Assembly (NCBI RefSeq): GCF_900101545.1
Contig: NZ_FMZU01000003.1
Location: forward strand, 62,001-126,000
Length of the DNA stretch: 64,000 bases
Origin: Variovorax sp. CF079
Lineage (GTDB): Bacteria; Pseudomonadota; Gammaproteobacteria; Burkholderiales; Burkholderiaceae_C
Reading direction: 5' to 3'
Notes under the pieces: generated by a model
What the model saw: only the letters and a program-made list of their open reading frames with translations
Database searches by the model: none
What the model was told of the DNA's origin: nothing
Shown here: positions 8,457-53,366 of the stretch, in pieces
Layout of the letters: every line of letters starts with the position of its first letter
Numbering within the stretch: position 1 is the first letter of the stretch
Position numbers and translations under genes: made by a program

Positions 8457-9122
8457 ATGGCAGAACATCTCGTCAACTCCTTCGCAGACTTTCACGACAT
8501 CGTGACGAAGTACAGTGATATAGCTGTCGTGTTTCGCGGCGTTCGAAGCGTCGATTTTGAGTTGCTCCCCAAGATTGGGCGGTACAGAAAGCTTCACTTG
8601 ACCGACCGACAAAAGGAGGAGCGCCAAATCCTGAAGCTCTTCAAGGACCAGGCCATGCCCCACCTCAACTTCCAACCGGAAGACGATTGGGAGTGGCTGG
8701 CTCTCGCCCAACACCATGGGCTGCCAACACGCCTTCTTGATTGGTCCCGCAATCCACTCGTTTCTGCGTACTTTGCCGTTGAGGAATCGCATGACGGTGA
8801 CAGCGCGGTGTACGCTTATCGGTCATCCAAGAGCCTCAAGGAAAAGCGTGGAAGCCCCTTCGACATCAACAGCGTTGAGCGGTTCATCCCGCGACACGTG
8901 ACTCGCCGCATTACGTCCCAGGCTGGCCTATTCACTGCGCACCCGGACCCAACAAGGCCATTTGAGAGCCGCGCCGCTGTGGATAGGCTCATCATCAAGC
9001 AGGCATTCCGCAAGAACCTGAAGAGCATTCTCTTCAGGTACGGCATTCACCGCGCAAGCCTTTTCCCGGACCTCGACGGCCTGTCCAAGCACATCGAGTG
9101 GATGCGCACGGACTCATACTGA
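8457..9122 (+). CDS. FRG-domain protein
   Basis: A 221-residue protein with the FRG domain (named for its conserved Phe-Arg-Gly). FRG itself is at VVFRGVRSVDFELLPKIGR (about residues 23-41), followed by the second signature LAQHHGLPTRLLDWSRNPLVSAYFAV (about 82-108). Its biochemical role is not established; FRG genes are frequent in mobile and defence regions. It stands alone here, between insertion-sequence remnants, and has lower GC than its neighbours, suggesting separate acquisition. The ATG at 8457 is the first in frame. Confidence 0.85.
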   Translation: MAEHLVNSFADFHDIVTKYSDIAVVFRGVRSVDFELLPKIGRYRKLHLTDRQKEERQILKLFKDQAMPHLNFQPEDDWEWLALAQHHGLPTRLLDWSRNPLVSAYFAVEESHDGDSAVYAYRSSKSLKEKRGSPFDINSVERFIPRHVTRRITSQAGLFTAHPDPTRPFESRAAVDRLIIKQAFRKNLKSILFRYGIHRASLFPDLDGLSKHIEWMRTDSY

Positions 9123-12219: not shown

Positions 12220-15200
12220 TCACGTGTTCGGCAATGTTGGTGGCGCATTCGGCGATACATCGTACTTCTTGACCGCCCATCTCAGTAGCTCCCATTGCCC
12301 GAGTTCCTCGCGCGGCGCTTCCGTGTCGCCACGCCGAATCGCGGAAGCTATCGCTGCGCGATCAACGTAAGGCACCTTGCACGTTTCGATCAGCAGACGC
12401 GAGAGCTTCTCGTTCGGCTGCACCGCCTGCCGGATGTCGTCCCCAGGTTCGAGCAGGGACGACAGGATTCCCGACATCGCCATCGCACTGGGTCCAGCGC
12501 CTATCTTCATAGTCAGCATGGCCGTGGAAACCTTCTCGGTAAGCTGGGTCCGGTGCTCCGTGCTGAGTAGTCTGGTGTGAGCTCTGATGACCGCGGCGAT
12601 GGCGTTGAGGTCACGGGTGCTTTTTGCGTCACCCATGTTGGTCAGCAGAACCACGATGGACGAATGAAGGGCGGGTTCTTCGCGTCCCTTGAGCAAGGCC
12701 GCCAGGATTAAGCGCTTGTGCCGCCCGGTTACGTGGCTGAGCCGGGCAAATTGCCGGACGCGTACTTCGGCGCTGGCGTCGGGCAGCTTGGCTCCGAGGA
12801 TCGCAAGGCCGTCCTGCACGGTGGCGGGAGATTTCGACGAGCCTCGCAGTCTCGAGGATAGACTACCGCCGTCCTCTTCATCATCGAGCGAGTCGTCGTC
12901 ACCTAACGTCGACGATAGGACCGCCGCGGCAAGTCGCCTGTCGTCACGAGCGACCGCGGGAAAGATGCCGGCCAGATGATCGAATAGCTTTTCGCGCGCA
13001 GCGGCCGGCTGGTGTTCGACGGTGGCGACCAGCGCTGAATTGATATGAGATCCCGACTCCTTGTCCACTTTAACGTCGATCAAGGCCTTGGTCCACGTTT
13101 CCAGCTCCGCTGGATCTTTCGCTGCGGAGGTCGAAACCGAGACCAGCACCTCGCCGAGCGTGTCCGATCGCTGAAGGTTCGACGCCCTGAGTCGTCGGAC
13201 CATGTCCGAAACATTCCTGGCGATTCCGAAGGGACGCGTCGACTCGGCGTCGACCTGGGCGAACTTCGCATTCTGAAGCTCCGCATACTTGCCCAGCAAC
13301 GCGGTGCCTATGCCCACGGCCTCGCCGGCGGTCGTATAGAGCACAAGGACCTGCATCATCCTTGTCCGCTTGTTCATTTCGATGCGGCTCGTCGCCAACT
13401 TGATCGAGGCTATGGAGGCGTCGACGATCTCACGACGAATTGCTGGGGAAAAACGCTTGGCAGTCGCGGCAAGTCCTTTCATTAGGGCTGCGATCTGGTC
13501 GTCGTCGTTGAGAGTGACCAGTTGGGTTTCCAGTGCGGCAAACAATCCTGGCAGCTGCCGTTCGGGAACTCGCTGGATCACCCCCACCAGATCGTCGCCG
13601 AGCGTCACCAGCTCTTCGGCATCGATGGTCGCGTGAATAGCACGCAGAACACCGTCGGTGCTCGCCGCCTTGCGGGCCCGTATCCTGACCGAAGATCCGC
13701 GATTCGCGACTTTCATGCCGTCGGCTTGGATCGCCTTTTCCAACTGCTTTTGCATGCCCGCCAACCGCAGCCTCTCGGATGGCTTCGCGGACTCCATCTC
13801 CTGCGCGATCGAAGCATTCCACGACATGACATGATCAATCGGGGCGGCGTCGATGATCTTGCCTGTCACGCCCAGCCTGCCCTCCGGGGAAAGCTTGACC
13901 AGCCTGCGGGCCAAGTCGAACCGACGATCGACCTGGGGCTCGGGAACCTTGACGGGTAGCGTTGCGATCCAGCTCTCCTCGCGAAGCAGCAGGGGGTCTC
14001 CGAGCCTCGAGGCCTCGCCGATGAGATGCTCAACGAGCCCTTCCTGCCCGTCCCCCCGCCTCATGATGGTTCGAAGCGCCGGAGCCAATGACACGGTTGT
14101 CGTCGGCGCGGTCACAGCCCGCATCACAACGACGGACCATGGCTGCAGCAGCGTGTTGGGTATGTTTGCGCTGACGATCTGCGCCTCCTGCGCCAGACGT
14201 CCTTGAGCCTCCGGGGTCGACGTCGTTGCGAGCCGCGAAGACCACACGGCGGCAAAACGGGCGATCTGATCCGCGTCGACATGCTTCGCGACCTGCCCCA
14301 ACCCTTTCAGAAATGCATCGCTCTGTGCTTTTTCCAGCGGTCTGTTCGCGTGGTCGTGCAAGGTCAGCAGCCATCTCTCGCGCTCCTGCCCCCCGATTTC
14401 GGCCATGGCACTGCTCAGCAGCGCTGAGCGTGCGTCCAGCAACAGCATCTCACTTCGGGAACCGTCGACTATCTGTTGAACAAGCCGATCGACCCACTCA
14501 GACCGCTCGCGAGCCGGCGCCATGGCCGCTGCGGCGCCAAAGTGCGCCGCCAGATCGCCCGGCGAGACAATCGCGCTCTTGCTTTGCAATGCAGCGTCCC
14601 AGTCTTCGAATCTGCTCTCGCCCAGCATCCCTAGTACGCTCGCGTCGGCTGCCTTGTCGCGCTCTTTTCCCTGTGTCGAAGAGCGTATCCTGCTGGCGAT
14701 CTCGCTGCGCAATGCGTCATCCAGACCCACGGCGCCCCGGACCACTAACCCGGTACCGGCAAACATGCTTCGCTGCAGGCGCGTTTCACTCACGCCCTGG
14801 AGTGCGAATCTCGCGCGAATCTGCTCGCTGGCCTGGGCCACATCGAACATCTTGTGAGCCGCGCTGGCGGGAAGGGACTCCGTGTTCTCGTTGATGCGGA
14901 TGTCCGTCCACAGCGATCCGACCTGCGTGTTCAGTTCCTGGTTGTAGGCGGAATAGCTGAAGTAACCCACCGCGACGCTCGCGACTACGAGCAGTGCCGA
15001 CAATCCGTGCAGCGTGTATTTGCCCACCTTCTCGCGCATGTCGCTCCGGTGAATGAAAGCCGCAACATCGTCGAAGGTGTTGCGCTCCGCGCTCTTGTAG
15101 CGGGACGCCCACGCCAGAGTCGGCCTGCCACCCTCGTCACCTAGCCACAGCCCTCGTTTTAACCAGACCATTGCGCGTTGTAGGTCGCCACCACTCAGGA

Positions 15201-16602
15201 GGGAGCCGGTCTTGAGCCGTTCATCCTTCATGCGCTCTTGCAGGCGGCGGTATTCCCGTCCGCCGTCCGCCTCCCGCGTGACCCATTTCTCGAGCGTCGC
15301 CCATTGGCGCATCAGCGACTCATGCGAAAGGTCTATGACGGTGTTCTCGCCGTCGGCCGGCTCCAGCGGCTGGCCGCGATACGTCAAGAAGTTCGCGCTC
15401 GGGTCCGAGAACAGTTCGACGATCGGAACATACGTGCGCCACGCACGGCCGCTCCATTCCGCGATGCGCTTCAAAGTCTGCGGCCGCCTGACGCGTTGAC
15501 CCCCGCCGTCCATCGATCGTTCGTCGGTGATTGCGCGGAAGAGCCACTCGGCGTCGATGCGCTGCGTAGCGTTCAGATGGGTCAGCAGCGTCTCGCCGTG
15601 GATCGAAAGCGCGCCATCGACGCCTCCGACCTCGCTCAGGTCTGCCATCGTGACTCGTATCTCCGATCCGGCGGCACGGACCTTCGCCGCGGACCACATC
15701 CGGGCCAGCGCGTGCTGCAGGATGGGAAGCTGATCCGAGTTCTTCTGGACGGCGTTGATCAATTCCTCCACCAGCCTGGGTTCTATGCCCCCCCCGAACA
15801 TTTCGGCCGGTCCGGTCACGACCTCCCGGACCTGGTCCCGGGCCAGGCGTGGCGTCAGATACTGAGCGCGATTGATCGCCTCCGGTAGATCGAGAAAACG
15901 CACGCAGTGGCCGAGAAAGTCTGTCCTCATAGTCAAGGTGACGAACAGCTTATTTTCGTGTGCCGATTTCGCAGTCAGAAGCAGATTGACGAAGACGTCC
16001 GACTCGTCCGCTTGCGCGTCGCCTGCCTCAGCATAGGTGAAGAGCTCCTCGAACTGATCGACCAGGATCAGAAGATTGAATTCCGGATGTCGGCTCTTTC
16101 CGCGCGCTGCATCGACCAAATCGACCATGGAGCGAGGGCCGCGCCGGAGGGCGGTTTCGATCAACGTGACCACCGACTGATCGGGCTGTCGTGCGGGCAA
16201 AGGGAGCAACTCATCACCCAATACGTCCGGCTTCAACAACGCTTCCGCGAGGCTTCGTAGCGGCTTCTGGCCGGGCCTGACGACCGCGACCCTCCACCTC
16301 GTTCCGGTGCCGACGGGTCCGAGCGGCAGGAGAGGTAGCAGGCCGGCGCGTACCAAGCTCGACTTTCCCGAACCGGAGGGCCCGATGACTGCAAGAAATC
16401 GCTCGCGTTGAAGAATCTCGAGCAATCTGCCGACGTGCCGTTCGCGCCCGAAGAAAATCCCCGCCTCGGCCTCCCCGAAGGGGCGGAGGCCGGGATACGG
16501 TGACGACGGCGACTGCAGGGTGAACGAATCCTCGTCGTCGATTTCCGTCGGCGGCTGCTCGACGAAGTCGTCGTGCGTAAGGCCCAGCGTCGCCTCATGC
16601 AT
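12220..16602 (-). CDS. nSTAND1-type NTPase with membrane segment and long C-terminal region
   Basis: A 1460-residue STAND-class NTPase. After a short acidic N-terminus comes the nSTAND1 entry motif PYPGLRPFGEAEAGIFFGR (about residues 35-53), Walker A GPSGSGKSS (74-82) and Walker B LLILVDQFEEL (about 177-187). A winged-helix-like region follows to about residue 500. One strong transmembrane helix lies near residues 525-550 (LSALLVVASVAVGYFSYSAY). The remaining 900 residues are helical and show no domain I recognise. STAND proteins act as oligomerising sensors that activate effectors. The gene overlaps the end of the TIR gene by 8 bases, so translation is probably coupled; the TIR protein is the likely effector partner. 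Confidence 0.85.
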   Translation of the reverse strand: MHEATLGLTHDDFVEQPPTEIDDEDSFTLQSPSSPYPGLRPFGEAEAGIFFGRERHVGRLLEILQRERFLAVIGPSGSGKSSLVRAGLLPLLPLGPVGTGTRWRVAVVRPGQKPLRSLAEALLKPDVLGDELLPLPARQPDQSVVTLIETALRRGPRSMVDLVDAARGKSRHPEFNLLILVDQFEELFTYAEAGDAQADESDVFVNLLLTAKSAHENKLFVTLTMRTDFLGHCVRFLDLPEAINRAQYLTPRLARDQVREVVTGPAEMFGGGIEPRLVEELINAVQKNSDQLPILQHALARMWSAAKVRAAGSEIRVTMADLSEVGGVDGALSIHGETLLTHLNATQRIDAEWLFRAITDERSMDGGGQRVRRPQTLKRIAEWSGRAWRTYVPIVELFSDPSANFLTYRGQPLEPADGENTVIDLSHESLMRQWATLEKWVTREADGGREYRRLQERMKDERLKTGSLLSGGDLQRAMVWLKRGLWLGDEGGRPTLAWASRYKSAERNTFDDVAAFIHRSDMREKVGKYTLHGLSALLVVASVAVGYFSYSAYNQELNTQVGSLWTDIRINENTESLPASAAHKMFDVAQASEQIRARFALQGVSETRLQRSMFAGTGLVVRGAVGLDDALRSEIASRIRSSTQGKERDKAADASVLGMLGESRFEDWDAALQSKSAIVSPGDLAAHFGAAAAMAPARERSEWVDRLVQQIVDGSRSEMLLLDARSALLSSAMAEIGGQERERWLLTLHDHANRPLEKAQSDAFLKGLGQVAKHVDADQIARFAAVWSSRLATTSTPEAQGRLAQEAQIVSANIPNTLLQPWSVVVMRAVTAPTTTVSLAPALRTIMRRGDGQEGLVEHLIGEASRLGDPLLLREESWIATLPVKVPEPQVDRRFDLARRLVKLSPEGRLGVTGKIIDAAPIDHVMSWNASIAQEMESAKPSERLRLAGMQKQLEKAIQADGMKVANRGSSVRIRARKAASTDGVLRAIHATIDAEELVTLGDDLVGVIQRVPERQLPGLFAALETQLVTLNDDDQIAALMKGLAATAKRFSPAIRREIVDASIASIKLATSRIEMNKRTRMMQVLVLYTTAGEAVGIGTALLGKYAELQNAKFAQVDAESTRPFGIARNVSDMVRRLRASNLQRSDTLGEVLVSVSTSAAKDPAELETWTKALIDVKVDKESGSHINSALVATVEHQPAAAREKLFDHLAGIFPAVARDDRRLAAAVLSSTLGDDDSLDDEEDGGSLSSRLRGSSKSPATVQDGLAILGAKLPDASAEVRVRQFARLSHVTGRHKRLILAALLKGREEPALHSSIVVLLTNMGDAKSTRDLNAIAAVIRAHTRLLSTEHRTQLTEKVSTAMLTMKIGAGPSAMAMSGILSSLLEPGDDIRQAVQPNEKLSRLLIETCKVPYVDRAAIASAIRRGDTEAPREELGQWELLRWAVKKYDVSPNAPPTLPNT

Positions 16603-18076
16603 GCCCAGCCTCCAAAACTAGGGCATCGAGGAATCTTTGAACCTCGTGCGCAGAAACGCCCGCGCTACATTCAAGCGGCATGACGCGCTCGTCGGCAATC
16701 CGGGGAGACTTTCCGCCCTTGGGCGGCGGTGCATTCAGCACGGCGCCCCAGAGCTTGCGTGACCTTTTCGCAAGCAGGCGCTGGGCTCTCAGATACTGCG
16801 CCTGGACCCAGGTCGGCGACTCGGCGCCGTAGACGAGGATCATGGCATCGCATCCGCTGATGATCTCGTCGACTGTTGCCTGATAGTCGCCGGAGGACTG
16901 GTTCGCGGAGAGCTGCAACGGAGGCTGGATCGCACGATGCCCTAGCGAACCGATGGTGTCCAGCAGTTGCGTGCAAATATCTTCGTCATCAGAGCCAGCG
17001 GCGACGCAGATGCCGAGCGAGATAGTGTCGTCGTGGCCGGATTTCTTCGGCGGCGGTGGCCTGCATGCCGCCAGCACCGCGAGGCGGAACTGTTCGAAGT
17101 TCTGGTTCGAGGTGCCGGTGAGGAGCTCCTTGAGCGTTTTATCCTCAAGCTTCTCCATCGCGATCGTCGGAGCGCGCCAACGTAGGACGCGAACGCTAGT
17201 GTCCAGTGAGGCGCTGACGTCCATGAGCTGTGCCTGCAGCCCTGCGACCGTCGCATTCGATGTACCTATGGCTTCACCCAAGGTGGCGCCGAAGAGCTGC
17301 ACCAGCACACTGCATTGGCTTAAGTCTGCCTCGACGGCATTCTTGAACAGCGGGGCCGAATCGGTAGGATAGACTTGTGCCGCTTTCGGCAGGACTTCAA
17401 TGCCTTCCCTGACGAGCGTCGACTTAAGGAGATCCCATTGCTCGGTCAGTTCCGGAGGTGGCTGCGCAATCCAAACCTTGGCGCCGAGGTAGCGCTGCGG
17501 ATCCGAGGGAAGTACTGCCCCGTCCAGGCGATTCATTAGCGCGAAGGCCAGTTCGTTGACATTGATCCAGTAGGGGCTGGACTCGTCATCTTTCGGCATC
17601 GGATCGCCAAGCAGTTTGGGGGCGGTGGCCCTCGGGTCCTTGGCCCACATCTGGACCGTCTTCAGACTCTGCAATTGCGGATGCCAGGTGCTTCGATTCG
17701 TGGTGAACATCTCGACGATAAAAACACTGGCGGGACGTGCCGCCGCCGCATTTTTCTGTAGGAACGTGATCAACTCCGTGGCGCACCAGGGAGACTGCTG
17801 GTAACTCCTAGAAAGAAACAGCAGAAGCGTCCTTGCTGACGACGCGGTCCTTTCCAGGAGCGGCGTCACGGCCACACCGGCGGCCAGTTGGTGATCCATG
17901 AAGATCGACGCTCCGTTCCCCATCTGCATGGTGAGCTGACGGTCCAGATTGAGAACGAACCGCGTCACCCAGCCCATCTTGCCGTCCAATGCCGTGTCGT
18001 CCGCGCGGGCGTAGCTCACAAACACGTCGAAAGGTTCGCTCCGGTTGTCCAGATCGGCAGGCAAAGCCAACGGCAT
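16595..18076 (-). CDS. Protein with N-terminal TIR and C-terminal TIR-like domain
   Basis: A 493-residue protein. Residues about 15-150 form a TIR domain of the bacterial effector type: FDVFVSYARADD, then FLSRSYQQSPWCATELITF, where the Glu after WCAT (about E101) is the expected NAD-cleaving residue. A middle segment (about 190-320) is unassigned. Residues about 350-450 look like a second, degenerate TIR (ISGCDAMILVYGAESPTWVQ). Paired TIR domains of this kind commonly accompany nSTAND1 NTPases. Here the NTPase is the next gene, overlapping by 8 bases. Probable role is NAD-depleting effector controlled by the STAND partner; this is inference. Confidence 0.85.
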   Translation of the reverse strand: MPLALPADLDNRSEPFDVFVSYARADDTALDGKMGWVTRFVLNLDRQLTMQMGNGASIFMDHQLAAGVAVTPLLERTASSARTLLLFLSRSYQQSPWCATELITFLQKNAAAARPASVFIVEMFTTNRSTWHPQLQSLKTVQMWAKDPRATAPKLLGDPMPKDDESSPYWINVNELAFALMNRLDGAVLPSDPQRYLGAKVWIAQPPPELTEQWDLLKSTLVREGIEVLPKAAQVYPTDSAPLFKNAVEADLSQCSVLVQLFGATLGEAIGTSNATVAGLQAQLMDVSASLDTSVRVLRWRAPTIAMEKLEDKTLKELLTGTSNQNFEQFRLAVLAACRPPPPKKSGHDDTISLGICVAAGSDDEDICTQLLDTIGSLGHRAIQPPLQLSANQSSGDYQATVDEIISGCDAMILVYGAESPTWVQAQYLRAQRLLAKRSRKLWGAVLNAPPPKGGKSPRIADERVMPLECSAGVSAHEVQRFLDALVLEAGHA

Positions 18077-18282
18077 GGTGCGTCCTTAGCTCGAAACGAG
18101 TGCGATCGAAGATATTCCAAGTGCAGATCGGCGCAATCCCACGGATTGTCTATATCCAGGCGCGGAGCGGACGCTGCTCCTTCGGCGCGCCCGCGGGGCG
18201 GTCGCGAGCTATTGCTTTTGGCGTACTGTCCGTGTCTGCCAAGGCTCTTAACATACGGCGATATCAACAAGCGGGAAGAGGC
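18077..18282. promoter_or_regulatory. Divergent promoter region of the TIR/STAND/FxsC/SLOG cluster
   Basis: A 206-bp non-coding gap separates the leftward TIR-STAND pair from the rightward five-gene operon. Both promoters must lie here, which would allow joint control of all seven genes. I see no strong inverted repeat in it. Confidence 0.5.
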
Positions 18283-18765
18283 ATGAGCAACGACCCGACA
18301 ACGTCACCGTTGTGGCCCGCGGACAGCCCAGCCGTAGTCGCGCACATGAGCCTGCTTCAGGGCGTCGTGAACCGCCTGGCCGGCAACAGCGCATCTTGCA
18401 AGACTTGGTGCATGACCCTCGTCGCAGCGCTGCTAAGCTTGGCCGGCGCCGCGCATGCGCCTGCGATCGTCGGCATCGCACTGGTTCCCGTGGCCGTGTT
18501 CGGCTATCTCGACACGATGTACCTGAGCCAGGAGCGGGCGTACCGCCGGCACTTCGAAAACCTTGCGAAGAAGATCCGGCAGAAAGAGTACACGCTCGAC
18601 GATCTCTTCGACGCGGACGCGCCGCGCAATGCGGGGGACTTCTGGCATGCCTTGGGCTCGTGGTCGATAGGGCCGGTGTATGCCGGACTCGCGCTGGCCT
18701 ACTTCGTTGCCCATAGCCTGGGATACCTCGCGATCCTGGCAATCCCGGCGTCAGCCGCGAAGTAA
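18283..18765 (+). CDS. Small membrane protein, SLATT-like arrangement
   Basis: A 160-residue protein. Two adjacent hydrophobic segments lie at about residues 43-75 (TLVAALLSLAGAAHAPAIVG and ALVPVAVFGYLDTMYL), followed by a charged helix (SQERAYRRHFENLAKKIRQ) and a third hydrophobic segment near the C-terminus (AGLALAYFVAHSLGYLAILA). The two-helix hairpin followed by an ExxYR-type cytosolic helix recalls SLATT proteins, membrane effectors that accompany SMODS and SLOG genes. A SLOG gene is indeed in the same operon. The assignment is tentative. The ATG at 18283 has a GGGAAGAGG ribosome-binding site. The next gene starts 8 bases after its stop. Confidence 0.7.
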   Translation: MSNDPTTSPLWPADSPAVVAHMSLLQGVVNRLAGNSASCKTWCMTLVAALLSLAGAAHAPAIVGIALVPVAVFGYLDTMYLSQERAYRRHFENLAKKIRQKEYTLDDLFDADAPRNAGDFWHALGSWSIGPVYAGLALAYFVAHSLGYLAILAIPASAAK

Positions 18766-18773
18766 AGGCCCGC

Positions 18774-20066
18774 ATGGCAGTGCCCCCGCGCTTCTTCTTC
18801 TCGCATGCCCGCCTAGACACTGAAATGCCGGGGCGCTACCTACTGCGCTTCTTCGAAGACCTCGAGAAGACGGTGGCGGCGTTCCACGCGGCCGCCCTTC
18901 CGCTAGGGACCATCGACAAGCGAGTGGGCCACGGCACGGATTGGGATCAATTCCTCAGCAGTGGCCTAATGCGCGACAAAGCTTTCATCGCCGTCCTGAC
19001 ACCCTACTACCCAACCCGCCTAAACTGCGGCAAGGAGCTGGGCGTCTTCCTCCTGCGCAGCCCGAAGCTGGGCGTAACGGACAGCGGCGAGTTGACCGGC
19101 GTGAGCAATGTGCTGCCCATACGTTGGATGACACAGGAGGCGTATGCGGTCAACAACGTGAAAGATGCGCTGATCCCCGAAATACTTCGCCTTGTGCAGG
19201 ACGGACCCGCGGACGATCTGCACGATGCGGAGCGGACGCGAGCCATCGAACGCTACCGCAGGACCGGCATGCAGAACTGCGTGTCGCGCGGGCGGCGCTA
19301 CTACACGATCCTGCTCGAACTCCTCGCGCTGCGCATCCGCGAGATGGGCGAGCTTCCGCCCGCCGCCGATGCCAGCTTTGACACGGCGAAGGACGCATTC
19401 AGCTATGACTGGCGACTGCACTTCAATGGCGCGCCTTCGGACCCGAACTGTTTGCCACCAGTGCCTGCGGCGCCATCGGCCCTCGCCGAACGGCCAGGGG
19501 CGTTGAATTCGCTGGTCGCGTTCTACATCACGAAGCGCGCGTACACCGTCGCATCCGTTCGTGGAGAATTTTCCGAGCACTTGATCGCCGAGTCGTTCTC
19601 GGGGGTTGCGGCAGCGACGGACCTAGACCTTGCCGGCCTGTTCGCCGACATCCGTTCCGCCGCAATGGACGAAGGGTTGAACGCGTTCCATGCGGCAACA
19701 CAGCTCCCTTCGCTGCTGGCACATCTCGCCTCGTTGAGCAGCGCGCATGTGCTCGTGGCGGTCGTGATCGATCCGGACCTCTGGCCAGTCGCGCCGGGCG
19801 CTTACAACGATGGTCTCATCGACGGCATCGTCGGATCGCAGAATTGGCGCGGGCCGGTCCTGCGGCCGATCTTCGACGGCAGTTCGGCCGGAGCCAATCT
19901 TCCGCCGCGGGTCGTGACCCTACCCCGGACGCCTGTCGAGCGCGTCCCGGTGCTGCGCCGCGTGTTCGTCGAGTCAAGGGGGGAAGCGTTGCGCACCAGC
20001 AGTCGAGTCAATTTGGAGTCCAAGCGGCTGCCTCTGCTTCGGGGTGTCGGCGGGGAGCGCCCGTGA
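18774..20066 (+). CDS. FxsC-like TIR-related protein
   Basis: A 430-residue protein resembling FxsC. The N-terminal TIR-like fold begins PPRFFFSHARLDTEMPGRYL and continues with FIAVLTPYYPTRLNCGKELGVF (about residues 68-90), where GKEL takes the place of the usual TIR catalytic Glu segment. The C-terminal part (about 310-400) has HVLVAVVIDPDLWP and LRPIFDGSSAGANLPP, matching the second FxsC domain. In actinobacteria FxsC accompanies a radical-SAM enzyme and an FxSxx peptide; neither is present here. It lies inside a tight operon and ends in a GTGA overlap with the ATPase gene. Confidence 0.75.
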   Translation: MAVPPRFFFSHARLDTEMPGRYLLRFFEDLEKTVAAFHAAALPLGTIDKRVGHGTDWDQFLSSGLMRDKAFIAVLTPYYPTRLNCGKELGVFLLRSPKLGVTDSGELTGVSNVLPIRWMTQEAYAVNNVKDALIPEILRLVQDGPADDLHDAERTRAIERYRRTGMQNCVSRGRRYYTILLELLALRIREMGELPPAADASFDTAKDAFSYDWRLHFNGAPSDPNCLPPVPAAPSALAERPGALNSLVAFYITKRAYTVASVRGEFSEHLIAESFSGVAAATDLDLAGLFADIRSAAMDEGLNAFHAATQLPSLLAHLASLSSAHVLVAVVIDPDLWPVAPGAYNDGLIDGIVGSQNWRGPVLRPIFDGSSAGANLPPRVVTLPRTPVERVPVLRRVFVESRGEALRTSSRVNLESKRLPLLRGVGGERP

Positions 20067-21715
20067 CGCCCAGCCGCGGCCGTATCGTCACCTTCTATTC
20101 GTACAAGGGAGGCACAGGGCGCTCGATGGCAATGGCGAACTTCGCGTGGCTCCTTGCGGCCAGCGGCAAGCGCGTGCTGACCATCGACTGGGACCTCGAA
20201 GCGCCCGGGCTGCATCGCTACTTCCGGCCCTTTCTGGTCGATCCCGACCTGTTTGAAACGGACGGCCTGATCGAGACCTTCTGGCGCTTCGCCGCGGCGG
20301 CGATGGCCAAGTCGCCGTCGACCCCGATGCCGGCGCCGACTCCGGCCCTCGTGGATGAGGACACGCTCGTCGACGCCTTGGAGGACGCAACCGTCCGACT
20401 CGACTGGTCGTTTGCCACCGACGGCTACATCGACTTCATCGGGGCAGGGCGACAGGGCGCCACGTACAGCGAACGCGTCAACACCTTCGACTGGACACGT
20501 TTCTACGAAATCGGTGGCGACCGCATCTTGCAATCGGCGACGCAGCACCTGCGCGGGCTCTACGACTGGGTCCTGATTGACAGCCGCACTGGCGTATCCG
20601 ACACCTCGGGCATCTGCACGATCCAGATGCCGGATGCGGTTGTCTCCTGTTTCACCCTTAACCGGCAGAGCATCGATGGGGTCGTAGCCGTCCTACGATC
20701 CATCCGATCGTTTCGCAGCAAGAACCTGGACAGCGACAGGATCGACTTCTATCCGATCGCCACGCGGATCGAAAACGCCGAACAGGCGCGGCTCGAAACG
20801 GCACGTGCCTATGCGCGCTCGGCCATGGCCGAGTTCTTGCCAAAGGATGCGCAATCGAGCGTGCGCGACTATTGGGACGGCATGGAAATCACCTACCGCC
20901 CTTCGTACGCCTTCGAGGAGGTGCTGGCGGCCTTCGGCGATGCCACGGGCGCTGCCGGAGCGGCCGACACCATGTTGTCGCAGGTGGAAGCGGTCGCGCA
21001 CAGAATCACCGGCGACTCGTCGTTGCGCATGCCCGAAATCATTGACATCGATCGGAACCGGGTCTTGGCGAGATACGCGCTCGACAACGGCCTGGACGAC
21101 CGTTCGCCCAAAAGCACAGCAAGCGCGGACGAGTCCGGGGCTCTGCGCGACGGCGACACAACGGGCTCGAGTACCGGCAGCATCGCTGCATTCGGCAACG
21201 ACATCGATTTTCTCCGCGGCGTCTTTGCGAAAGAGCAACTCTGGCGGACTTCCGGATTTCCCTGGCGATTGCTCCTAAGCCGTCGCGAATTGGACCTGTT
21301 GACGGACAGCGACAGGAGGAGCTTCGGTCGGACGGTCGCGTACTACGTCCTGCAAAGCCAGCGGGCCGAAGCGCTTTCCGTTTCTGCCAGCAAGGGCTTC
21401 GTGATCAGCGTGGGCATGGGTATTGTCGCAGTTGCCATGTACTTCTTCTGGACGGTCCTGGTCGGCGACTATCCTCGAACGGCTTGGGTCTTGATCTTCG
21501 CGGAGCTATCCCCAAAGTTGCCGGTGGCCGCGATGTTTGGTTTCGTGGCGTCGTCTCTGGTCGTCAGCAGCATGCAGCGACTCGGGAAAGACGTGCCCTA
21601 CGGGTTGCGCACGGTCGACGCTTTGGCTTTGGCACTCCTCGGGCCGCTGAAACCGCGTGTCCGGGACTACGAGAACCTTCCGGAGCATGACAATGCGCGT
21701 CGACATTTACGGTGA
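20063..21715 (+). CDS. KGGTGR-motif MinD/ParA-like ATPase with membrane tail
   Basis: A 550-residue protein starting at a GTG that overlaps the previous stop, with GGGGAG upstream. Residues about 7-60 carry a deviant Walker A, YSYKGGTGRSMAMAN, followed by VLTIDWDLEAPGLHRYF. This is the signature of the KGGVGR-variant P-loop ATPases that travel with FxsC. YDWVLIDSRTGVSDTSG near residue 170 is the next motif. After a variable linker, the C-terminus has two or three hydrophobic segments (VISVGMGIVAVAMYFFWTVL and KLPVAAMFGFVASSLVVS), so it is probably membrane-anchored. It may couple nucleotide state to the TIR proteins encoded on either side. Confidence 0.8.
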   Translation: MTPSRGRIVTFYSYKGGTGRSMAMANFAWLLAASGKRVLTIDWDLEAPGLHRYFRPFLVDPDLFETDGLIETFWRFAAAAMAKSPSTPMPAPTPALVDEDTLVDALEDATVRLDWSFATDGYIDFIGAGRQGATYSERVNTFDWTRFYEIGGDRILQSATQHLRGLYDWVLIDSRTGVSDTSGICTIQMPDAVVSCFTLNRQSIDGVVAVLRSIRSFRSKNLDSDRIDFYPIATRIENAEQARLETARAYARSAMAEFLPKDAQSSVRDYWDGMEITYRPSYAFEEVLAAFGDATGAAGAADTMLSQVEAVAHRITGDSSLRMPEIIDIDRNRVLARYALDNGLDDRSPKSTASADESGALRDGDTTGSSTGSIAAFGNDIDFLRGVFAKEQLWRTSGFPWRLLLSRRELDLLTDSDRRSFGRTVAYYVLQSQRAEALSVSASKGFVISVGMGIVAVAMYFFWTVLVGDYPRTAWVLIFAELSPKLPVAAMFGFVASSLVVSSMQRLGKDVPYGLRTVDALALALLGPLKPRVRDYENLPEHDNARRHLR

Positions 21716-22895
21716 CCCCAAGGGCAATCGCAAGGCGTTTGAGAGGGCGCTGCGGGCTCAGTGCCGGCAACTCGGAATCGAGTTGAATACTGTCGCTGCA
21801 GGGGACTTGGCAGCAGCAGTTTCCGTTGTTTTTGCCGAGCACGGCGTCGATTGGTCATCGCTCGACCTCGACACTTTCGCGGACCTCGCCTGCCGGGATC
21901 GACGGGTGCTTCCGGTCATCGACGTTGCTGCGAATGCGACGCGCATTCCGTCGGCTCTGACGAAGTACAATGCCTTTCTGACGAGCCCTTGGAGAACAGG
22001 GTGGCCAACAGGCCTCGTCGACGAAGTTCTGAGCCATGCCTGGCTTCGCCGGCGTGAGAGGAAAGTGTTCGTCAGCTACAAGCGAACCGACAGCGCGGCT
22101 CTCGCGAACAGGCTCTATGACGAACTCACGCGGCATGGCTATGTGACTTTCCTCGACGATGTGTCGATCGACAAGGGCACCGACTTTCAGAGCGATCTGA
22201 AGTGGTGGCTCAACGACGCCGACCTGCTTCTGGTCCTGCTCAGTCCGAACTTCACGAGTTCCAAATGGTGCCTGGAGGAAATAGCTTTTGCGAGGTCCAG
22301 ATCGATCGGCTTGCTGGCCGTCGAATGGCCCGATAGTGTCTACGCGCAGAAGATGACCCGCGTCTTCCCCGGCGCTGCCGCTGGCAGCCTACGACCTTCG
22401 GTGTTGCAGGCGACCGACCCCGACCAGAGACTTCAGTTGCGGGAAAAGGACTTAGAGGGACTCCGGGACGATCCGTTATGCGATCGGCCGCTGTCCCCCA
22501 TCGGCATGGAAAGACTGCTTACGGCCTGTGCCCGCCAGCGCTCACTTGCGATTCGGCAGCGACTCGAGGACCTGATCCCGTTGGCCCACGAAATGCTTGA
22601 TGCGGAAGATAGCTTTCAATCGAGCGAGGAACTGGGAGACTTCAAGTTCACCGACAAACTAAACCGGCGCTGCTTCGTGCGGGTGCTTCCTTTTCGGCCC
22701 GATCCGAAGGCCCTTTGGGACGCCTGTAGAAAGGCCAAGGGAGAGGATGTCGGTGGATGCTTCTACAGCGAATGCGACAAGGTCGACGAACGCGCGCGCG
22801 CGCTGCGCTGGCTGGCTAACCGACCGCACGAGGAAGCTGGCATGGCAGCCCACAGCCAGCTTTGGGCGTGCCTCGGCGACGAGATATTGCCATGA
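21693..22895 (+). CDS. TIR-domain protein with N-terminal extension
   Basis: A 400-residue protein. Residues about 1-115 are an unassigned domain (VDIYGDPKGNRKAFERALRA at the start). Residues about 115-240 are a TIR domain: KVFVSYKRTDSAALANRLYDEL, FLDDVSIDKGTDF, and LSPNFTSSKWCLEEIAFA containing the expected catalytic Glu. The rest (240-400) is unassigned. Of three TIR-type proteins in the cluster, this one and the leftward one keep the WC..E motif. I chose the ATG at 21693 because GGAG lies seven bases before it; the ATG at 21687 is too close to that site. It overlaps the ATPase gene by 23 bases and the SLOG gene by four (ATGA). Confidence 0.85.
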   Translation: MRVDIYGDPKGNRKAFERALRAQCRQLGIELNTVAAGDLAAAVSVVFAEHGVDWSSLDLDTFADLACRDRRVLPVIDVAANATRIPSALTKYNAFLTSPWRTGWPTGLVDEVLSHAWLRRRERKVFVSYKRTDSAALANRLYDELTRHGYVTFLDDVSIDKGTDFQSDLKWWLNDADLLLVLLSPNFTSSKWCLEEIAFARSRSIGLLAVEWPDSVYAQKMTRVFPGAAAGSLRPSVLQATDPDQRLQLREKDLEGLRDDPLCDRPLSPIGMERLLTACARQRSLAIRQRLEDLIPLAHEMLDAEDSFQSSEELGDFKFTDKLNRRCFVRVLPFRPDPKALWDACRKAKGEDVGGCFYSECDKVDERARALRWLANRPHEEAGMAAHSQLWACLGDEILP

Positions 22896-23686
22896 CGACC
22901 GGGCCGACCGACATTGCCGCTGCGTCGTCGCCGATATTCGGGTTGATGCTTCGCGTGGCCGACGTGACCGAAGTCGAGGCGTTGCTGGACGATGTTCCGT
23001 CCCTGCTGCTTTCGGCGAGCGTTCCCTATGCGCTCGACGAATCGATGTGCGAACCGAAGGACGTCGCGCGACTGCCTTTCCTGAATCAGCGCTATGTCGG
23101 CCGCGCTAGGCCCGACCGGATTCGCGCCGCGATCTCCGCATTGACGCGGGTCGCCCTTAATCACGAACTCCGCCTGGTCTTCGGTGCGCATCCCGCGATC
23201 AGCCCGATGGTGCTGCAGGCCGCCCGCGACATGCGCGCGCAGGCGAAGAGCATTGTCATCTTCCAATCCGCCGTCTACGCCGGGCGGTTGGCCCAGTCCA
23301 CCCTGGCGCTCGCCCAGTGGGACGCCGGCGTGCTGATCATGACTGCGGACCAAAAGGAGAGCGCGTCGAGCAGGCGAAATCCGAAGAGCCTGGAATTTAT
23401 GCGAAAGGCCATGGTCCGCGTGCCGGGACTGCTGGGCGCGGTGTTCGTCGGCGGCATGCAGGGGGTGGAGCGCGAAGCGCAGCTCTTTCAGAAGGCGCAT
23501 CCGAGAAAGAAGCGTTACGCTATCGCGTCCACCGGCTCCGCGGCGGAGTCGCTCGCCGACGACGATCCCAATGCGTTTCGCGGCACGCTGAGCGACCCTT
23601 CCCTGCTGGCGGACATGCGCTCCTACAGCGTCGTTGCACGCAGGATCGTTCTGGATCTGCTAGGGCCACTTCCGATCGCGACCTAA
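22892..23686 (+). CDS. SLOG-domain protein (TRPM/SLOG-like nucleotide sensor)
   Basis: A 264-residue protein of the SLOG superfamily, Rossmann-like domains that bind or process nucleotide-derived signals. The strand-loop patterns LRLVFGAHPAISPMVLQAA (about residues 90-108) and LLGAVFVGGMQGVEREAQLF (about 176-195) fit the family. SLOG domains are known sensor partners of TIR enzymes in Thoeris (ThsA) and of SLATT membrane effectors. Here both partner types lie in the same operon. The start codon overlaps the stop of the TIR gene (ATGA). It is the last gene of the operon and its end overlaps the convergent patatin-like gene by four bases. Confidence 0.75.
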   Translation: MTTGPTDIAAASSPIFGLMLRVADVTEVEALLDDVPSLLLSASVPYALDESMCEPKDVARLPFLNQRYVGRARPDRIRAAISALTRVALNHELRLVFGAHPAISPMVLQAARDMRAQAKSIVIFQSAVYAGRLAQSTLALAQWDAGVLIMTADQKESASSRRNPKSLEFMRKAMVRVPGLLGAVFVGGMQGVEREAQLFQKAHPRKKRYAIASTGSAAESLADDDPNAFRGTLSDPSLLADMRSYSVVARRIVLDLLGPLPIAT

Positions 23687-25053
23687 TCGACAGACATCAT
23701 CTTCAGGCAGCGCGCGTCGTGCGCCGACGGAGTATCGCCCACAGGGTCGGTGATCGCTGGCTCGAAAGGAAGAACGCACGAGTCGAGCCACCGCTTGCGT
23801 ATCCCGCGATCTGGCCACGCATAGTCTACATAGGGAATGACATGGTGCGCGGCGATGTATCCCCAATTGATCAACCTGGCCTGCAGAGAGTCGGGCATGG
23901 CGCGAAACTGGGTCGGTATCGCGGAAAGCGCGCGAACTTCGTCCGTCATCCATCGCGCCTCGGCCGGGCATTCAAACCCAAGGTATTTCGGACGTCGGCG
24001 CACGCTCCAGTAGGCATAGGCATCGGACGCTGAGTCTGCACCCGCCCTGCGTCTAGCGGACTCCAGGGTGGCTGGAATATCGGCGGTGGTGCAGGAATCC
24101 GCCGGCGCCGAGACCTGCCACGAAAATGCCCTCAAGCGCAGACTCCCCGCACGAATGATATTCGCTACGCGGATCTCGTCCGGCTGATCGGACATGAGAT
24201 GGAGTACCCGGAGGCTCTGGCTGAGCCAATTCCCGGCGGGGCCTGCATCGAGCGCTGTTGTCGCACCGCCGTCGGAAATGAGCGTCGCCGTCGCGTGTGC
24301 AACACCGTTCAGCCTCCTCAGTCGATTGATCTCCTCAATGGTTCCGATGCCGAGATTGTCCCGAACTCTGCGATCGACGAGATACACCCTCTGCCGGAAT
24401 GCGGCCAGGCCGTCGCGATCGTCGGGGAGCACGCGTCCCGGCTCGTTGCTATAGGCGATGCCATAGGGGTTGTCGTGGAAATCGCTGCAGTTGTGCCAGT
24501 CGGATCGGACATCCGTATCGGACAAGTCCAACTGCAGCGGCGAAAGCACCAGCGGGAAGCCACTCGAGGCGGCAACCGCCTCTGACAGAAGCGTCTTGCG
24601 CGGCGCGGTCCAATGTGTAATCGGACCGCCGATCGCGGAAGACCTGAGCTGCCACAGTTCGCCGGTCTGCAGATTAGTCGCATTGAAAACGAAGAGCGGC
24701 AGCGGTCTTCTTCTGTCGTCGAGCGGATCGGTGTGGCCACTGCCGGGCTCAATGTCGGCAAGAAGCGCACGATGGAACAGTCGCGAATCGAACTGCTCGA
24801 CCTGCTCCTTCGCGCTTGATGCAAATGGAAAGAAGCCGCGAATCACGACAGCGGCGCCCAATACTGCCAATGTCAACCAACCGCGCCGCCTTGATCGAAG
24901 TGCGTCGGTGCGCGGGCGGTCGGTGCATTCTCTCCAGGATTCGGCGCGCTCGAGCGTTTGCAATCGTGCACGCCGCTGTGGAACTAATGCGGGCTTGTCA
25001 TCCGGGCATTGCAAGGCCGGCAGCCTTGACCGGCGAGGTTCATTGCGCTCCAC
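23683..25053 (-). CDS. Patatin-like phospholipase relative lacking the nucleophile region
   Basis: 456 residues. From about residue 95 the protein follows the patatin family: FDSRLFHRALLADI, LFVFNATNLQTGELW, LSEAVAASSGFPLVLSPLQL, YLVDRRVRDNLG, WLSQSLRVLHLMSDQ and RLINWGYIAAHH. The first part of a patatin, with the oxyanion-hole glycines and GxSxG nucleophile, is absent. It is replaced by a basic stretch and one hydrophobic segment (GWLTLAVLGAAVVIRGFF, about 58-75). The catalytic DG[G/A] motif reads VDRR. The protein is therefore probably inactive as a lipase or a truncated gene. The GTG at 25053 has GAGGG upstream. Confidence 0.65.
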   Translation of the reverse strand: MERNEPRRSRLPALQCPDDKPALVPQRRARLQTLERAESWRECTDRPRTDALRSRRRGWLTLAVLGAAVVIRGFFPFASSAKEQVEQFDSRLFHRALLADIEPGSGHTDPLDDRRRPLPLFVFNATNLQTGELWQLRSSAIGGPITHWTAPRKTLLSEAVAASSGFPLVLSPLQLDLSDTDVRSDWHNCSDFHDNPYGIAYSNEPGRVLPDDRDGLAAFRQRVYLVDRRVRDNLGIGTIEEINRLRRLNGVAHATATLISDGGATTALDAGPAGNWLSQSLRVLHLMSDQPDEIRVANIIRAGSLRLRAFSWQVSAPADSCTTADIPATLESARRRAGADSASDAYAYWSVRRRPKYLGFECPAEARWMTDEVRALSAIPTQFRAMPDSLQARLINWGYIAAHHVIPYVDYAWPDRGIRKRWLDSCVLPFEPAITDPVGDTPSAHDARCLKMMSVD

Positions 25054-27593: not shown

Positions 27594-27761
27594 GGCAGCT
27601 CCTCGAATACAAAGTCGGGCCACTCTGAACCGATGCGAATACGCGCGCAATACCTCGTTTGGTGGACGAAGCGCCCGGCGTAGAAGCGTCCAATACCGAT
27701 CGTCGGAGGTGCACAACTCACCTTGCGCGCCACCACGGTTCAACAACGCCTGGAGGTCCCC
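27594..27761. promoter_or_regulatory. Divergent promoter region of the M6/caspase/CHAT module
   Basis: 168 bp between the two divergent peptidase genes, the only place for both promoters. No clear operator repeat is visible. Confidence 0.45.
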
Positions 27762-28604
27762 ATGGCCAAACTCGCCTTGTGCATCGGCATCAACAACTAT
27801 CCCGGCACCGACATGGATCTGGCCGGCTGCGTCAACGACGCCAACGACTGGGCCACCGAGCTCGCTTCGCGCGGCTTCGAGGTCACGAAGCTCATCGATG
27901 CGCAGGCCACCAAGGCGGGCATGGTTGACGGCTTCAGAAAGGTGATCGGCGCGGCGGTGCGCAGCGACGTGGTGGTGATCACCTTCTCGGGCCACGGCAC
28001 CTACCAGTACGACATCGACGGCGACGAGGAAGACGACCTAGACGAGGCGCTCTGTCCCCACGATATCCGCGCCATCGACGCGGCGCTGATCGACGACGAG
28101 ATCCACGCGCTCTTCAAGGCCCGCAAGGACGGCGTGCACATCGTGCTGATCTCGGACAGCTGCCACTCGGGCACTGTGAGCCGCGCGATCCCGCGCAGCG
28201 GCGACGTGGAAGCTGGCCGGGCCCCGCGCTTCATGCCAATGGAAAACTGGATGTCGCCCGAGCACTTCGCCAAAGGCGGGCCACGCGGCGCGACGGCGCC
28301 GCACGGTTCCGCGCACGTCGCATCGACGCCGTTTACCGATGCGCCGCAGGACGACGCGGGCGACGTGCTGATGGCGGGCTGCGAGGAAGGCGAAGATCAC
28401 TTCAGCTACGACGCCACCTTCATGGACCGCCCGAACGGCGCTTTCACGTTCTACGCGCTGAAGGCACTGCGCACCTTGAGGTCAGGTGCGACCTATGCCG
28501 ACTGGCATAGGGCATTGAAGGACTCGCTGCCGTCCACGCGCTATCCACAGACGCCGCGGATCCAGGGTACGGAGACTTCGACGGGCCGCGCGATCTTCAC
28601 CTAA
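27762..28604 (+). CDS. Caspase-like (metacaspase, C14) peptidase
   Basis: A 280-residue caspase-fold cysteine peptidase made up almost only of the catalytic domain. The N-terminal strand LALCIGINNYPGTDMDLAGC, catalytic His78 in FSGHGTYQYD and catalytic Cys134 in ISDSCHSGTV are all present. An acidic loop (DGDEEDDLDEA) lies between them and could bind calcium. No transmembrane segment or regulatory domain is fused. GGAGG is placed well before the ATG at 27762. The CHAT-hydrolase gene starts 54 bp downstream, and CHAT is itself a caspase-fold peptidase, so a proteolytic cascade is plausible but unproven. Confidence 0.92.
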   Translation: MAKLALCIGINNYPGTDMDLAGCVNDANDWATELASRGFEVTKLIDAQATKAGMVDGFRKVIGAAVRSDVVVITFSGHGTYQYDIDGDEEDDLDEALCPHDIRAIDAALIDDEIHALFKARKDGVHIVLISDSCHSGTVSRAIPRSGDVEAGRAPRFMPMENWMSPEHFAKGGPRGATAPHGSAHVASTPFTDAPQDDAGDVLMAGCEEGEDHFSYDATFMDRPNGAFTFYALKALRTLRSGATYADWHRALKDSLPSTRYPQTPRIQGTETSTGRAIFT

Positions 28605-28658
28605 GGCCCCCCACATGAAAGCCGCGCGGACTACCAGAACAACGACGACGAGGACACT

Positions 28659-38556: not shown

Positions 38557-39678
38557 CTATGCCACAAGCGCAGGTTCGCACAGGCGCAGTAGTTGCGATC
38601 GAATCTCTCCGGGCGGCGCTGTCAGATCCACCGTCGCAAATCGGATGCCGTGCTCCTGGATGACCACCGTCTCATCAACGGCGTCACCGACGGAAGGGTG
38701 AAGCAGCAAGCCACTGGCGCAATCCGCAAGCGGATCGCCGTTCCCAACCTGAGAACGCAAGTAGGCGTAGATCTGGTAAACGTAGCCGCTGCGCAGTGTT
38801 TCGTCTCGATACCAGCCGCTTGTGACGATCGACGTGAACTTGGTGTCAATGACGATTCGCCGACCGGACGGCGCGTGGTCCAGCACCACGTCGGTTCGCA
38901 TCGTTGGCAAGATCTTGTCAATTCCTGACGTCTTGTGCTCAATCTGCCAACCGAGCGTTCCGCCGCACCTAACACGCCATCCCTGCGGTTGCAGCACCAC
39001 GTCATAGAAGCCCCCTACGGCCTTCTCGAACAGTCGGCGGACCCAAGTGACCTCACGGTCCGGCAGAGTCAACACGTTCATCCCCGTCGTCTCGGTTGGC
39101 AAGGCAAGATCAACCGCCAGCTGCGCCGCAGCAACCATGAATCTGTCGTGCGCGTCGTTGCGGCCAAATCGATCGGTGCTCATCTGAGCTCGAGTGGGAA
39201 CTTTGCCGGAGACTCCCATGGCTTTCATGCCACTCGCAAGTGACCGGCAGCGATGGGCCACGTCTTTCCTGCGCACGATCCTGGAGATGGATTCCAGCGC
39301 CGCACGGACGAAACGATTGCGCGGAGTGTCGATCGTCAACTCGTCAAACCGACAGGCCACGAGGCCACGGTCCAGCAGTCGCTGCCGTTCCGTGCTCAGG
39401 ACATCAATCCGACCCCGCACGCGATTGAGAATAGCGTTCTGAGATCGGTAGCCAAGACTGAGCTGACGGCGCTGCCTGACTTCAACTGCGTGGGCCAGAA
39501 TCTCAGCGACTAGATCAGGCAGGTCGTCAGGGCTTTCCTCCAGGTCGACATTGCCGATGCCCCCAGTACGGAACAGGTCCGAGGCATATAGCATCAGCAA
39601 CCACAGGTTGCGCACCGGAATACGTCCGATGTAGCCCTCTACGCCTGTTAACGCGTTCTCGAGTTGGTCCGCGCCCAC
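38557..39678 (-). CDS. mcrC: McrC, nuclease subunit of the McrBC modification-dependent restriction system
   Basis: A 373-residue McrC protein. McrC stimulates the McrB GTPase and supplies the PD-(D/E)xK nuclease that cuts modified DNA. The start region IGRIPVRNLWLLMLYASDLF is highly typical. The nuclease core is seen as RTDVVLDHAPSGRRIVIDTKF (about residues 275-297) with Asp, Asp and Lys in order, followed by YQIYAYLRSQ. The gene begins 5 bases after mcrB ends, so the two are co-transcribed. Confidence 0.92.
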   Translation of the reverse strand: MGADQLENALTGVEGYIGRIPVRNLWLLMLYASDLFRTGGIGNVDLEESPDDLPDLVAEILAHAVEVRQRRQLSLGYRSQNAILNRVRGRIDVLSTERQRLLDRGLVACRFDELTIDTPRNRFVRAALESISRIVRRKDVAHRCRSLASGMKAMGVSGKVPTRAQMSTDRFGRNDAHDRFMVAAAQLAVDLALPTETTGMNVLTLPDREVTWVRRLFEKAVGGFYDVVLQPQGWRVRCGGTLGWQIEHKTSGIDKILPTMRTDVVLDHAPSGRRIVIDTKFTSIVTSGWYRDETLRSGYVYQIYAYLRSQVGNGDPLADCASGLLLHPSVGDAVDETVVIQEHGIRFATVDLTAPPGEIRSQLLRLCEPALVA

Positions 39679-39683
39679 AACGA

Positions 39684-41900: not shown

Positions 41901-41911
41901 TGCGGCCCCTC

Positions 41912-53364: not shown

Positions 53365-53366
53365 GC

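Follow-up and report, generated by a model that had tools for sequence, protein, structure and literature searches.

A Thoeris type III-like TIR–SLOG pair within a divergent seven-gene TIR cluster of Variovorax sp. CF079

Thoeris systems are the described systems closest to the locus considered here. According to excerpts of two papers (PMC11204291, PMC12948488), types I and II combine a TIR protein with a SLOG protein, and the effector is a SIR2-SLOG ThsA in type I and a TM-macro ThsA in type II. For type III, NCBIfam already holds models of a SLOG protein, ThcA (NF058525), and of a TIR protein, ThcB4 (NF058526), and the sole text on this type found in the literature searched is a mention of TadIII in an excerpt of PMC12390725. 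In that literature, which did not include NCBIfam's own type III reference, no account of the activation of the type III TIR was found, nor any combination of FxsC or KGGVGR proteins with Thoeris. FxsC peptide systems carry the radical SAM protein FxsB and an FxsA peptide nearby. MinD/ParA-like domains occur in NTP-dependent conflict systems, in whose description the name FxsC is absent from the excerpt available (PMC7159879). A further relative is the PADLOC candidate PDC-M50, whose component PDC-M50B is a ThsB-type TIR.

In the window (the whole 64,000-nucleotide stretch that was analysed), the seven ORFs reported in an earlier note, their divergent layout and the 206-bp gap between the two halves were all confirmed, within positions 12220-23686. 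On the minus strand, the gene of a 493-aa TIR protein (16595..18076; two stretches matching Pfam TIR_2, 2.4e-13) overlaps by 8 bp the gene of its partner, an nSTAND1 NTPase of 1460 aa (12220..16602; Pfam nSTAND1, 2.3e-89). The NTPase has one hydrophobic segment, residues 530-548, which hydropathy predicts to be a single transmembrane segment, in agreement with the membrane nSTAND1 protein proposed earlier. The divergent intergenic region, delimited by its length and the start codons (18077..18282), presumably contains both promoters. The plus-strand operon (18283-23686) comprises five genes and has the tight spacing that had been described, namely an 8-bp gap after the first gene and overlaps thereafter. 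The cluster is more than a chance grouping: two of the three TIR_2 matches in the 6.85-Mb genome fall within it, and both the adjacency of ThcB4 with ThcA and that of FxsC with the ATPase recur elsewhere. The seven genes are best read as two neighbouring systems.

The last two genes of the operon form the part that can be assigned to a described type. The SLOG protein (22892..23686, plus strand, 264 aa; Pfam LD_cluster3, 1.4e-30) exceeds the cut-off of the ThcA model (130.8 vs 110 bits). Directly upstream on the same strand, overlapping it by 4 bp at 22892-22895, lies the gene of a TIR protein of about 400 aa (21687 or 21693..22895), which matches the ThcB4 model (2.3e-45) but remains below its cut-off (155 vs 220 bits). 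This TIR keeps the conserved TIR glutamate, and W194 and E198 are invariant among 13 aligned sequences. In 28 of 29 plasmid records, the ThcA match is likewise directly preceded by a ThcB4 match on the same strand, at a distance of no more than 300 bp. The earlier description of the locus as undescribed is not supported for the TIR–SLOG pair, for which models exist. What is new is the set of genes that precede the pair, encoding a 2TM protein, an FxsC-like TIR and a KGGTGR ATPase. A Thoeris type III locus used for comparison (L072) has a SLOG-patatin protein and, as judged by eye, small TIR-like genes, whereas the window operon lacks both and has these three genes instead. The ThcA model was matched in 2 of 369 genomes of the class and the SLOG protein in 2 of 61 relatives, the own genome being counted in both cases, and the second positive relative is a genome of the same genus with two ThcB4-ThcA-type pairs. 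Scans of genome contigs with the SLOG protein or the FxsC alignment, and of viral contigs, were unproductive.

The structure model of the SLOG protein (pLDDT 76) is closest to the BcThsA SLOG domain solved with 3'cADPR (E 2.3e-5). The logic of a TIR coupled to a SLOG domain is thus shared with types I and II, but neither the SIR2-SLOG nor the TM-macro effector occurs among the seven proteins, in none of which Pfam finds a SIR2 or macro domain. No effector domain is fused to the ThcA protein according to Pfam, and LOG structures also occur among the fold matches. These two points, together with the hydrophobic segments at the C-terminus of the ATPase, would fit a reading in which ThcA is a LOG-like nucleotide-processing enzyme that remodels or degrades what the TIR makes, while the membrane segments of the ATPase act as the effector. 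Such an arrangement appears quite improbable, since ThsA accounts for all three fold matches with an E-value of at most 0.001, the structure matched in two of them being its SLOG domain with 3'cADPR, and since the operon also encodes a 2TM protein whose family is tied to TIRs.

The 2TM protein (18283..18765, plus strand, 160 aa) opens the operon, with hydrophobic segments by hydropathy at residues 50-68 and 136-154, and belongs to the PADLOC family PDC-M50A (8.9e-23). The SLATT likeness suggested in the earlier note found no support: no Pfam family, SLATT models included, matches the trimmed protein at E up to 5, and SLATT was dropped as the family name for 18283-18765. In the six loci that were read, out of 19 plasmid records with relatives of this protein, ThsB-type TIRs adjoin the relative in every case. 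PDC-M50 is matched in this component only; none of the TIRs among the seven proteins matches PDC-M50B at E 0.01. The 2TM protein is predicted to be the membrane effector.

Between the 2TM gene and the TIR–SLOG pair lie an FxsC-like TIR protein of 430 aa (18774..20066, plus strand; NCBIfam FxsC_Nterm, 3.1e-16) and, overlapping it by 4 bp, a KGGTGR MinD/ParA-like ATPase of 550 aa (20063..21715, plus strand; NCBIfam AAA_KGGVGR, 3.2e-40), the start of which was set from a 550-aa database protein (P0026). The ATPase is above its family cut-off (138.5 vs 90 bits). The FxsC-like protein is below those of both FxsC_Nterm (59.8 vs 130 bits) and Pfam TIR_2 (18.4 vs 28 bits); its residues 85-88, CGKE, are invariant in 13 aligned sequences, and its structure model is poor (pLDDT 63), with no PDB match at E 0.001. 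The placement of an FxsC-like TIR beside a KGGVGR-type ATPase resembles FxsC peptide systems and NTP-dependent conflict systems, but the protein falls short of the FxsC model. No radical SAM family was found among the 28 window ORFs scanned with Pfam, a scan of the longer ORFs. Nine of 12 FxsC relatives lie on a contig identical in size to one carrying an ATPase relative, against 0.03 expected from jittered sizes, which implies adjacency without showing it. The C-terminal part of the ATPase varies between loci: it consists of hydrophobic segments in the window (residues 440-504, by hydropathy), of an FGE domain in a Rhizobium beringeri locus (L010) and of NACHT-FGE in a locus of genome G856 (L069). 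For FGE/C-type-lectin domains borne by STAND proteins, a role in sensing antigens is proposed in an excerpt of PMC10907252.

The ATPase type of the window is rare, being found in 4 of 398 genomes of the phylum at E 1e-20, the own genome counted. Among the other three, only G856 has a TIR–SLOG pair, and in its class G856 itself is the only positive genome of 48; the ATPases of G092 (29% identity) and G844 (35% identity) match less well, and inspection by eye showed neither a TIR nor a SLOG gene there. The KGGVGR superfamily as a whole, above cut-off in 14 of 369 class genomes including the own, was rejected as a marker of the system, since 14 other loci fetched, judged by eye from ORF starts, show different neighbours. 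The FxsC alignment gave three positives among 399 genomes of the order, the own included and two of them weak, and on plasmids neither the FxsC-like nor the TIR-TIR protein had a match by tblastn.

The recurrence of the parts raises the question of whether the operon is one system. It could consist of three unrelated TIR modules (2TM; FxsC-ATPase; ThcB4-ThcA) that were stacked by island growth, are merely co-transcribed and each defend alone. The ThcB4-ThcA plasmid pairs agree with this reading, none of the 29 ThcA records being among the 17 that match the ATPase, and no KGGTGR-type ATPase is named in the annotation of eight ThcA plasmid loci; the 2TM-TIR neighbours in six loci and the FxsC-ATPase contigs that recur without the other modules point the same way. 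However, the ATPase and TIR genes overlap across the module border by 23 or 29 bp, depending on the TIR start, only 8 bp follow the 2TM gene, and two loci combine two modules each, in differing gene orders. In L069, genes for ThcB4 (250 vs 220 bits, above cut-off), a ThcA-like SLOG (53.7 bits, below cut-off) and the KGGTGR-NACHT-FGE ATPase overlap on one strand; G856 is a genome distant from that of the window. In L010, an FxsC gene (119 bits vs a cut-off of 130) overlaps that of the KGGTGR-FGE ATPase, which is 45% identical to the window ATPase over 321 positions, and the facing strand carries SLOG, TIR and patatin genes; this SLOG is of the LD_cluster2 type, unlike ThcA, and the TIR has no ThcB4 match. 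The earlier note would have given up its proposal if other genomes combined two of the genes at most; genes of the same kinds number three in L069 and four in L010. The full five-gene set was found in no other genome searched. Independent stacking appears unlikely.

The plus-strand operon thus adds the ATPase, the FxsC-like TIR and the 2TM protein to a Thoeris type III-like ThcB4-ThcA pair. The preferred reading, held with about as much confidence as doubt, is that this set forms a hybrid of Thoeris that acts by abortive infection. From the protein families we infer NAD cleavage, a signal, its binding and a membrane step. Detection of infection would fall to the ATPase-FxsC pair, which would free the TIR enzymes; these would produce an NAD-derived nucleotide, ThcA would bind it, and the 2TM protein would then breach the membrane, so that the infected cell dies. 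The ThsA-like SLOG fold, the TIR glutamate and the 2TM family make the earlier suggestion of a TIR-made signal read by SLOG and executed at the membrane the best model for this operon. Its location among genes that match known antiviral systems also speaks for the preferred reading. The least supported steps are the sensor role of the ATPase, beside which the differing C-terminal parts may be set, and the relay of the signal to the 2TM protein by ThcA, which has no effector domain. A more specific version, tentative and less probable than the general one, proposes a new type of Thoeris: the KGGTGR ATPase, NLR-like and anchored in the membrane, and the FxsC-like TIR would gate a ThcB4-ThcA nucleotide signal that opens a 2TM pore, the C-terminal part of the ATPase being taken as an interchangeable sensor. 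The ATPase that shares the operon with the SLOG-TIR pair has a C-terminal part that varies between loci and is sometimes NACHT-FGE; if the reading is true, Thoeris would gain a dedicated, swappable sensor, and three TIR-based modules that are mostly met separately would be tied together.

The earlier note went further and joined both halves into a single two-branch system. On this view, sensing would be the task of the TIR-nSTAND1 pair, and signalling and execution that of the plus-strand operon. The shared 206-bp region, the concentration of TIR_2 matches and a similar layout in L010, where the FxsC-KGGTGR ATPase genes are divergent from a gene with WD40, whose product has an N-terminal TIR and a TM segment recognized by eye only, favour this view. 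Nevertheless, none of the three database relatives of the minus-strand TIR, one of which lies on a contig of 63,885 bases, is on a contig of the same size as those of the 12 FxsC or 119 listed ATPase relatives; a Caballeronia plasmid locus (L075) has a TIR and nSTAND1-WD40 pair that stands alone, the annotation of the surrounding 9 kb naming neither a SLOG nor a KGGTGR gene; and L069, with its ThcB4, ThcA and ATPase genes, shows by eye no TIR-STAND gene among its other ORFs. Independence of the two halves, named earlier as grounds for abandoning the proposal, was thus observed in part: a similar pair occurs alone in Caballeronia, yet the divergent WD40 gene of L010 lends the unity of the seven genes a slight probability. 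As a whole, the two-branch system is decidedly unlikely. The divergent TIR-nSTAND1 pair is likely a second, independent system of the TIR-STAND kind, in which the nSTAND1 NTPase would probably act as the switch. The comparison with Avs that had been suggested gave no Avs model match in PADLOC; at E 0.01 the NTPase matches only mad3 and mad8, weakly.

Downstream of the operon, a convergent ORF (23683-25053) that resembles a patatin by eye was rejected as one, since Pfam gave nothing at E 1 and BLAST did not match it to the patatins of L010 or L011. Zorya I, type I R-M and McrBC genes share the low-GC stretch in which the cluster lies.

The seven open reading frames, their strands, their overlaps and the 206-bp divergent gap were all borne out when the window sequence was re-read. 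The plus-strand operon encodes a 2TM protein (likely start 18283), an FxsC-like TIR protein, a KGGTGR ATPase (likely start 20063, matching P0026, a database protein of 550 aa), a ThcB4-like TIR protein (likely start 21687 or 21693) and a ThcA SLOG protein (likely start 22892). The 6.85-Mb genome contains three TIR_2 matches, two of them within this cluster.

The earlier note regarded the whole cluster as a candidate undescribed system. This is not supported for the last two genes of the operon, since both match existing NCBI Thoeris type III models: the SLOG protein scores 130.8 bits, above the ThcA cut-off of 110, and the TIR protein 155 bits, below the ThcB4 cut-off of 220. The pair is recurrent. 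Relatives of the SLOG protein occur in 29 plasmid records, the same 29 that are matched by the ThcB4 query from G856 (a genome of the same phylum but another class), and in 28 of them the TIR match lies directly upstream of the SLOG match, on the same strand and within 300 bp. In the exception, from Cupriavidus, the listed SLOG row is a second place; a TIR–SLOG pair is present at the TIR match, and its SLOG aligns with the other SLOG sequences. Two ThcB4–ThcA-type pairs are also found in a genome of the same genus. A fuller Thoeris type III set, in genome G703 (L072, 3751-9947), comprises ThcB4 (452 bits), ThcA (245 bits), a SLOG(LD_cluster2)-patatin protein, at 219.9 bits above the CBASS lipase cut-off of 200, and four small TIR-like genes recognized by eye, outside the Pfam scan. 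The window operon has neither the SLOG-patatin protein nor the small TIR-like genes. The operon is filed as Thoeris-III-like, and is not counted as a member, because it reaches only one of the two model cut-offs and carries a different set of genes.

A structural model of the SLOG protein, built from five sequences (pLDDT 76, pTM 0.80), matches PDB entry 7uxs, the SLOG domain of BcThsA with 3'cADPR, better than any other (E 2.3e-5), followed by other ThsA, DprA and LOG entries; at 12% sequence identity, the match to 7uxs does not give the identity of the ligand. In the TIR protein, Trp194 and Glu198 are invariant across 13 ThcB4-type sequences, and the glutamate is presumably catalytic, as in TIR NADases.

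The FxsC-like protein, whose CGKE motif (85-88) is invariant across 13 sequences, appears to travel with the ATPase. It has 12 database relatives, against 119 listed ATPase relatives (own excluded) of 4421 at E 0.001 or better. For 9 of the 12, the longest-contig size is identical to the base with that of a listed ATPase relative (0.03 expected with jittered sizes); the partners of the other three may fall outside the 119 listed. These nine pairs represent co-occurrence only, and direct adjacency was observed at L010, on the Rhizobium beringeri plasmid pRlX4. FxsC-like proteins had no plasmid match and occur in 3 of 399 genomes of the order, own included, two of the three being weak. At E 1e-20, the ATPase type is present in 4 of 398 genomes of the phylum, own included, and within the class of G856 in that genome only (1/48). 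The remaining two of the four phylum genomes give weaker matches (29% and 35% identity) and showed no TIR or SLOG gene on inspection by eye.

Elsewhere, genes of these kinds were found joined in partial combinations; no second copy of the complete five-gene set was found in the genomes and plasmids searched. In G856 (L069, 5747-10835), three genes overlap on one strand in a single operon: ThcB4 (250 bits, above the cut-off), a ThcA-like SLOG (53.7 bits on ThcA; 44 bits on LD_cluster3) and an ATPase of KGGTGR-NACHT-FGE type. Here a Thoeris pair is coupled to an FGE-bearing, NLR-like protein. L010 (3472-15087) holds in one stretch a divergent WD40 gene with a TIR part recognized by eye, FxsC (119 bits, below the cut-off of 130) and an ATPase of KGGTGR-FGE type (45% identity across 321 positions with the window ATPase), faced by an LD_cluster2 SLOG, a TIR without a ThcB4 match and a patatin protein in which hydrophobic stretches were recognized by eye. 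On plasmids, the 29 ThcA records and the 17 records matching the ATPase do not overlap, and none of eight ThcA loci read has a KGGTGR-type ATPase named in its annotation. The C-terminal part of the ATPase varies between loci (hydrophobic in the window, FGE in L010, NACHT-FGE in L069, TIR by annotation in the comparison locus L011), which suggests sensor swapping. In PMC10907252, FGE/C-type-lectin domains on STAND proteins are proposed as antigen sensors, and PMC7159879 discusses MinD/ParA-like and SLATT components in related conflict systems.

The 2TM protein matches PADLOC PDC-M50A and has relatives in 19 plasmid records (15 listed). Six loci chosen from these 19 were read, and each has an annotated TIR gene no more than 1 kb from the 2TM match. 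PADLOC ThsB models recognize every one of these TIRs, and PDC-M50B recognizes four of them as well. In the operon, sensing would fall to the KGGTGR ATPase with FxsC, as we infer; the TIRs, judging by their families, would make a signal; ThcA, on the basis of its modelled fold, is predicted to bind it; and the 2TM protein, by family association, would be the executor. The weakest link is the inferred step to the membrane from ThcA, which has no fused effector. At a Rhodococcus ruber locus (L085, 3578-4468), the 2TM match lies inside a HIT family-annotated gene overlapping a ThsB-type TIR gene; such a HIT-type nucleotide hydrolase fused to a 2TM effector could be an off-switch.

The minus half, nSTAND1 (12220-16602) and TIR-TIR (16595-18076), had been joined with this operon into one two-branch system. 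This reading is considered unlikely, since none of the three TIR-TIR relatives shares a longest-contig size with the 12 FxsC or 119 listed ATPase relatives, and a comparable pair stands alone at one Caballeronia locus. Matches to the nSTAND1 protein occur in 163 plasmid records, with Caballeronia nSTAND1-WD40 genes ranked highest; at the sole such locus read (L075), nSTAND1-WD40 is preceded by a TIR gene, with a DUF4231 gene upstream, and the annotation within 9 kb names neither a SLOG nor a KGGTGR gene. The minus half is read as a separate TIR-STAND system.

GC content, about 0.70 at the edges of the window, drops to roughly 0.59-0.64 across most of 8-58 kb, a stretch read as a defence island. 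A convergent ORF (23683-25053) overlaps the SLOG stop by 4 bp and has patatin-like motifs by eye, an identity without family-model or BLAST support. Outside the cluster, the island includes an FRG-domain gene (8457-9122; PADLOC candidate PDC-S15, 265.6 bits); a gene with a caspase domain and, immediately after it, one for a 2014-aa CHAT protein that also matches LCAT and DUF7379 (27723-34703), which could together be a further cell-death system; a Tn3-family transposase (35069-37798); a McrBC-like pair adjoining a type I restriction-modification set in which HsdM is encoded twice (38557-49061); and, by PADLOC models, a minus-strand Zorya type I set of ZorA, ZorB, ZorC and ZorD (49143-55864).
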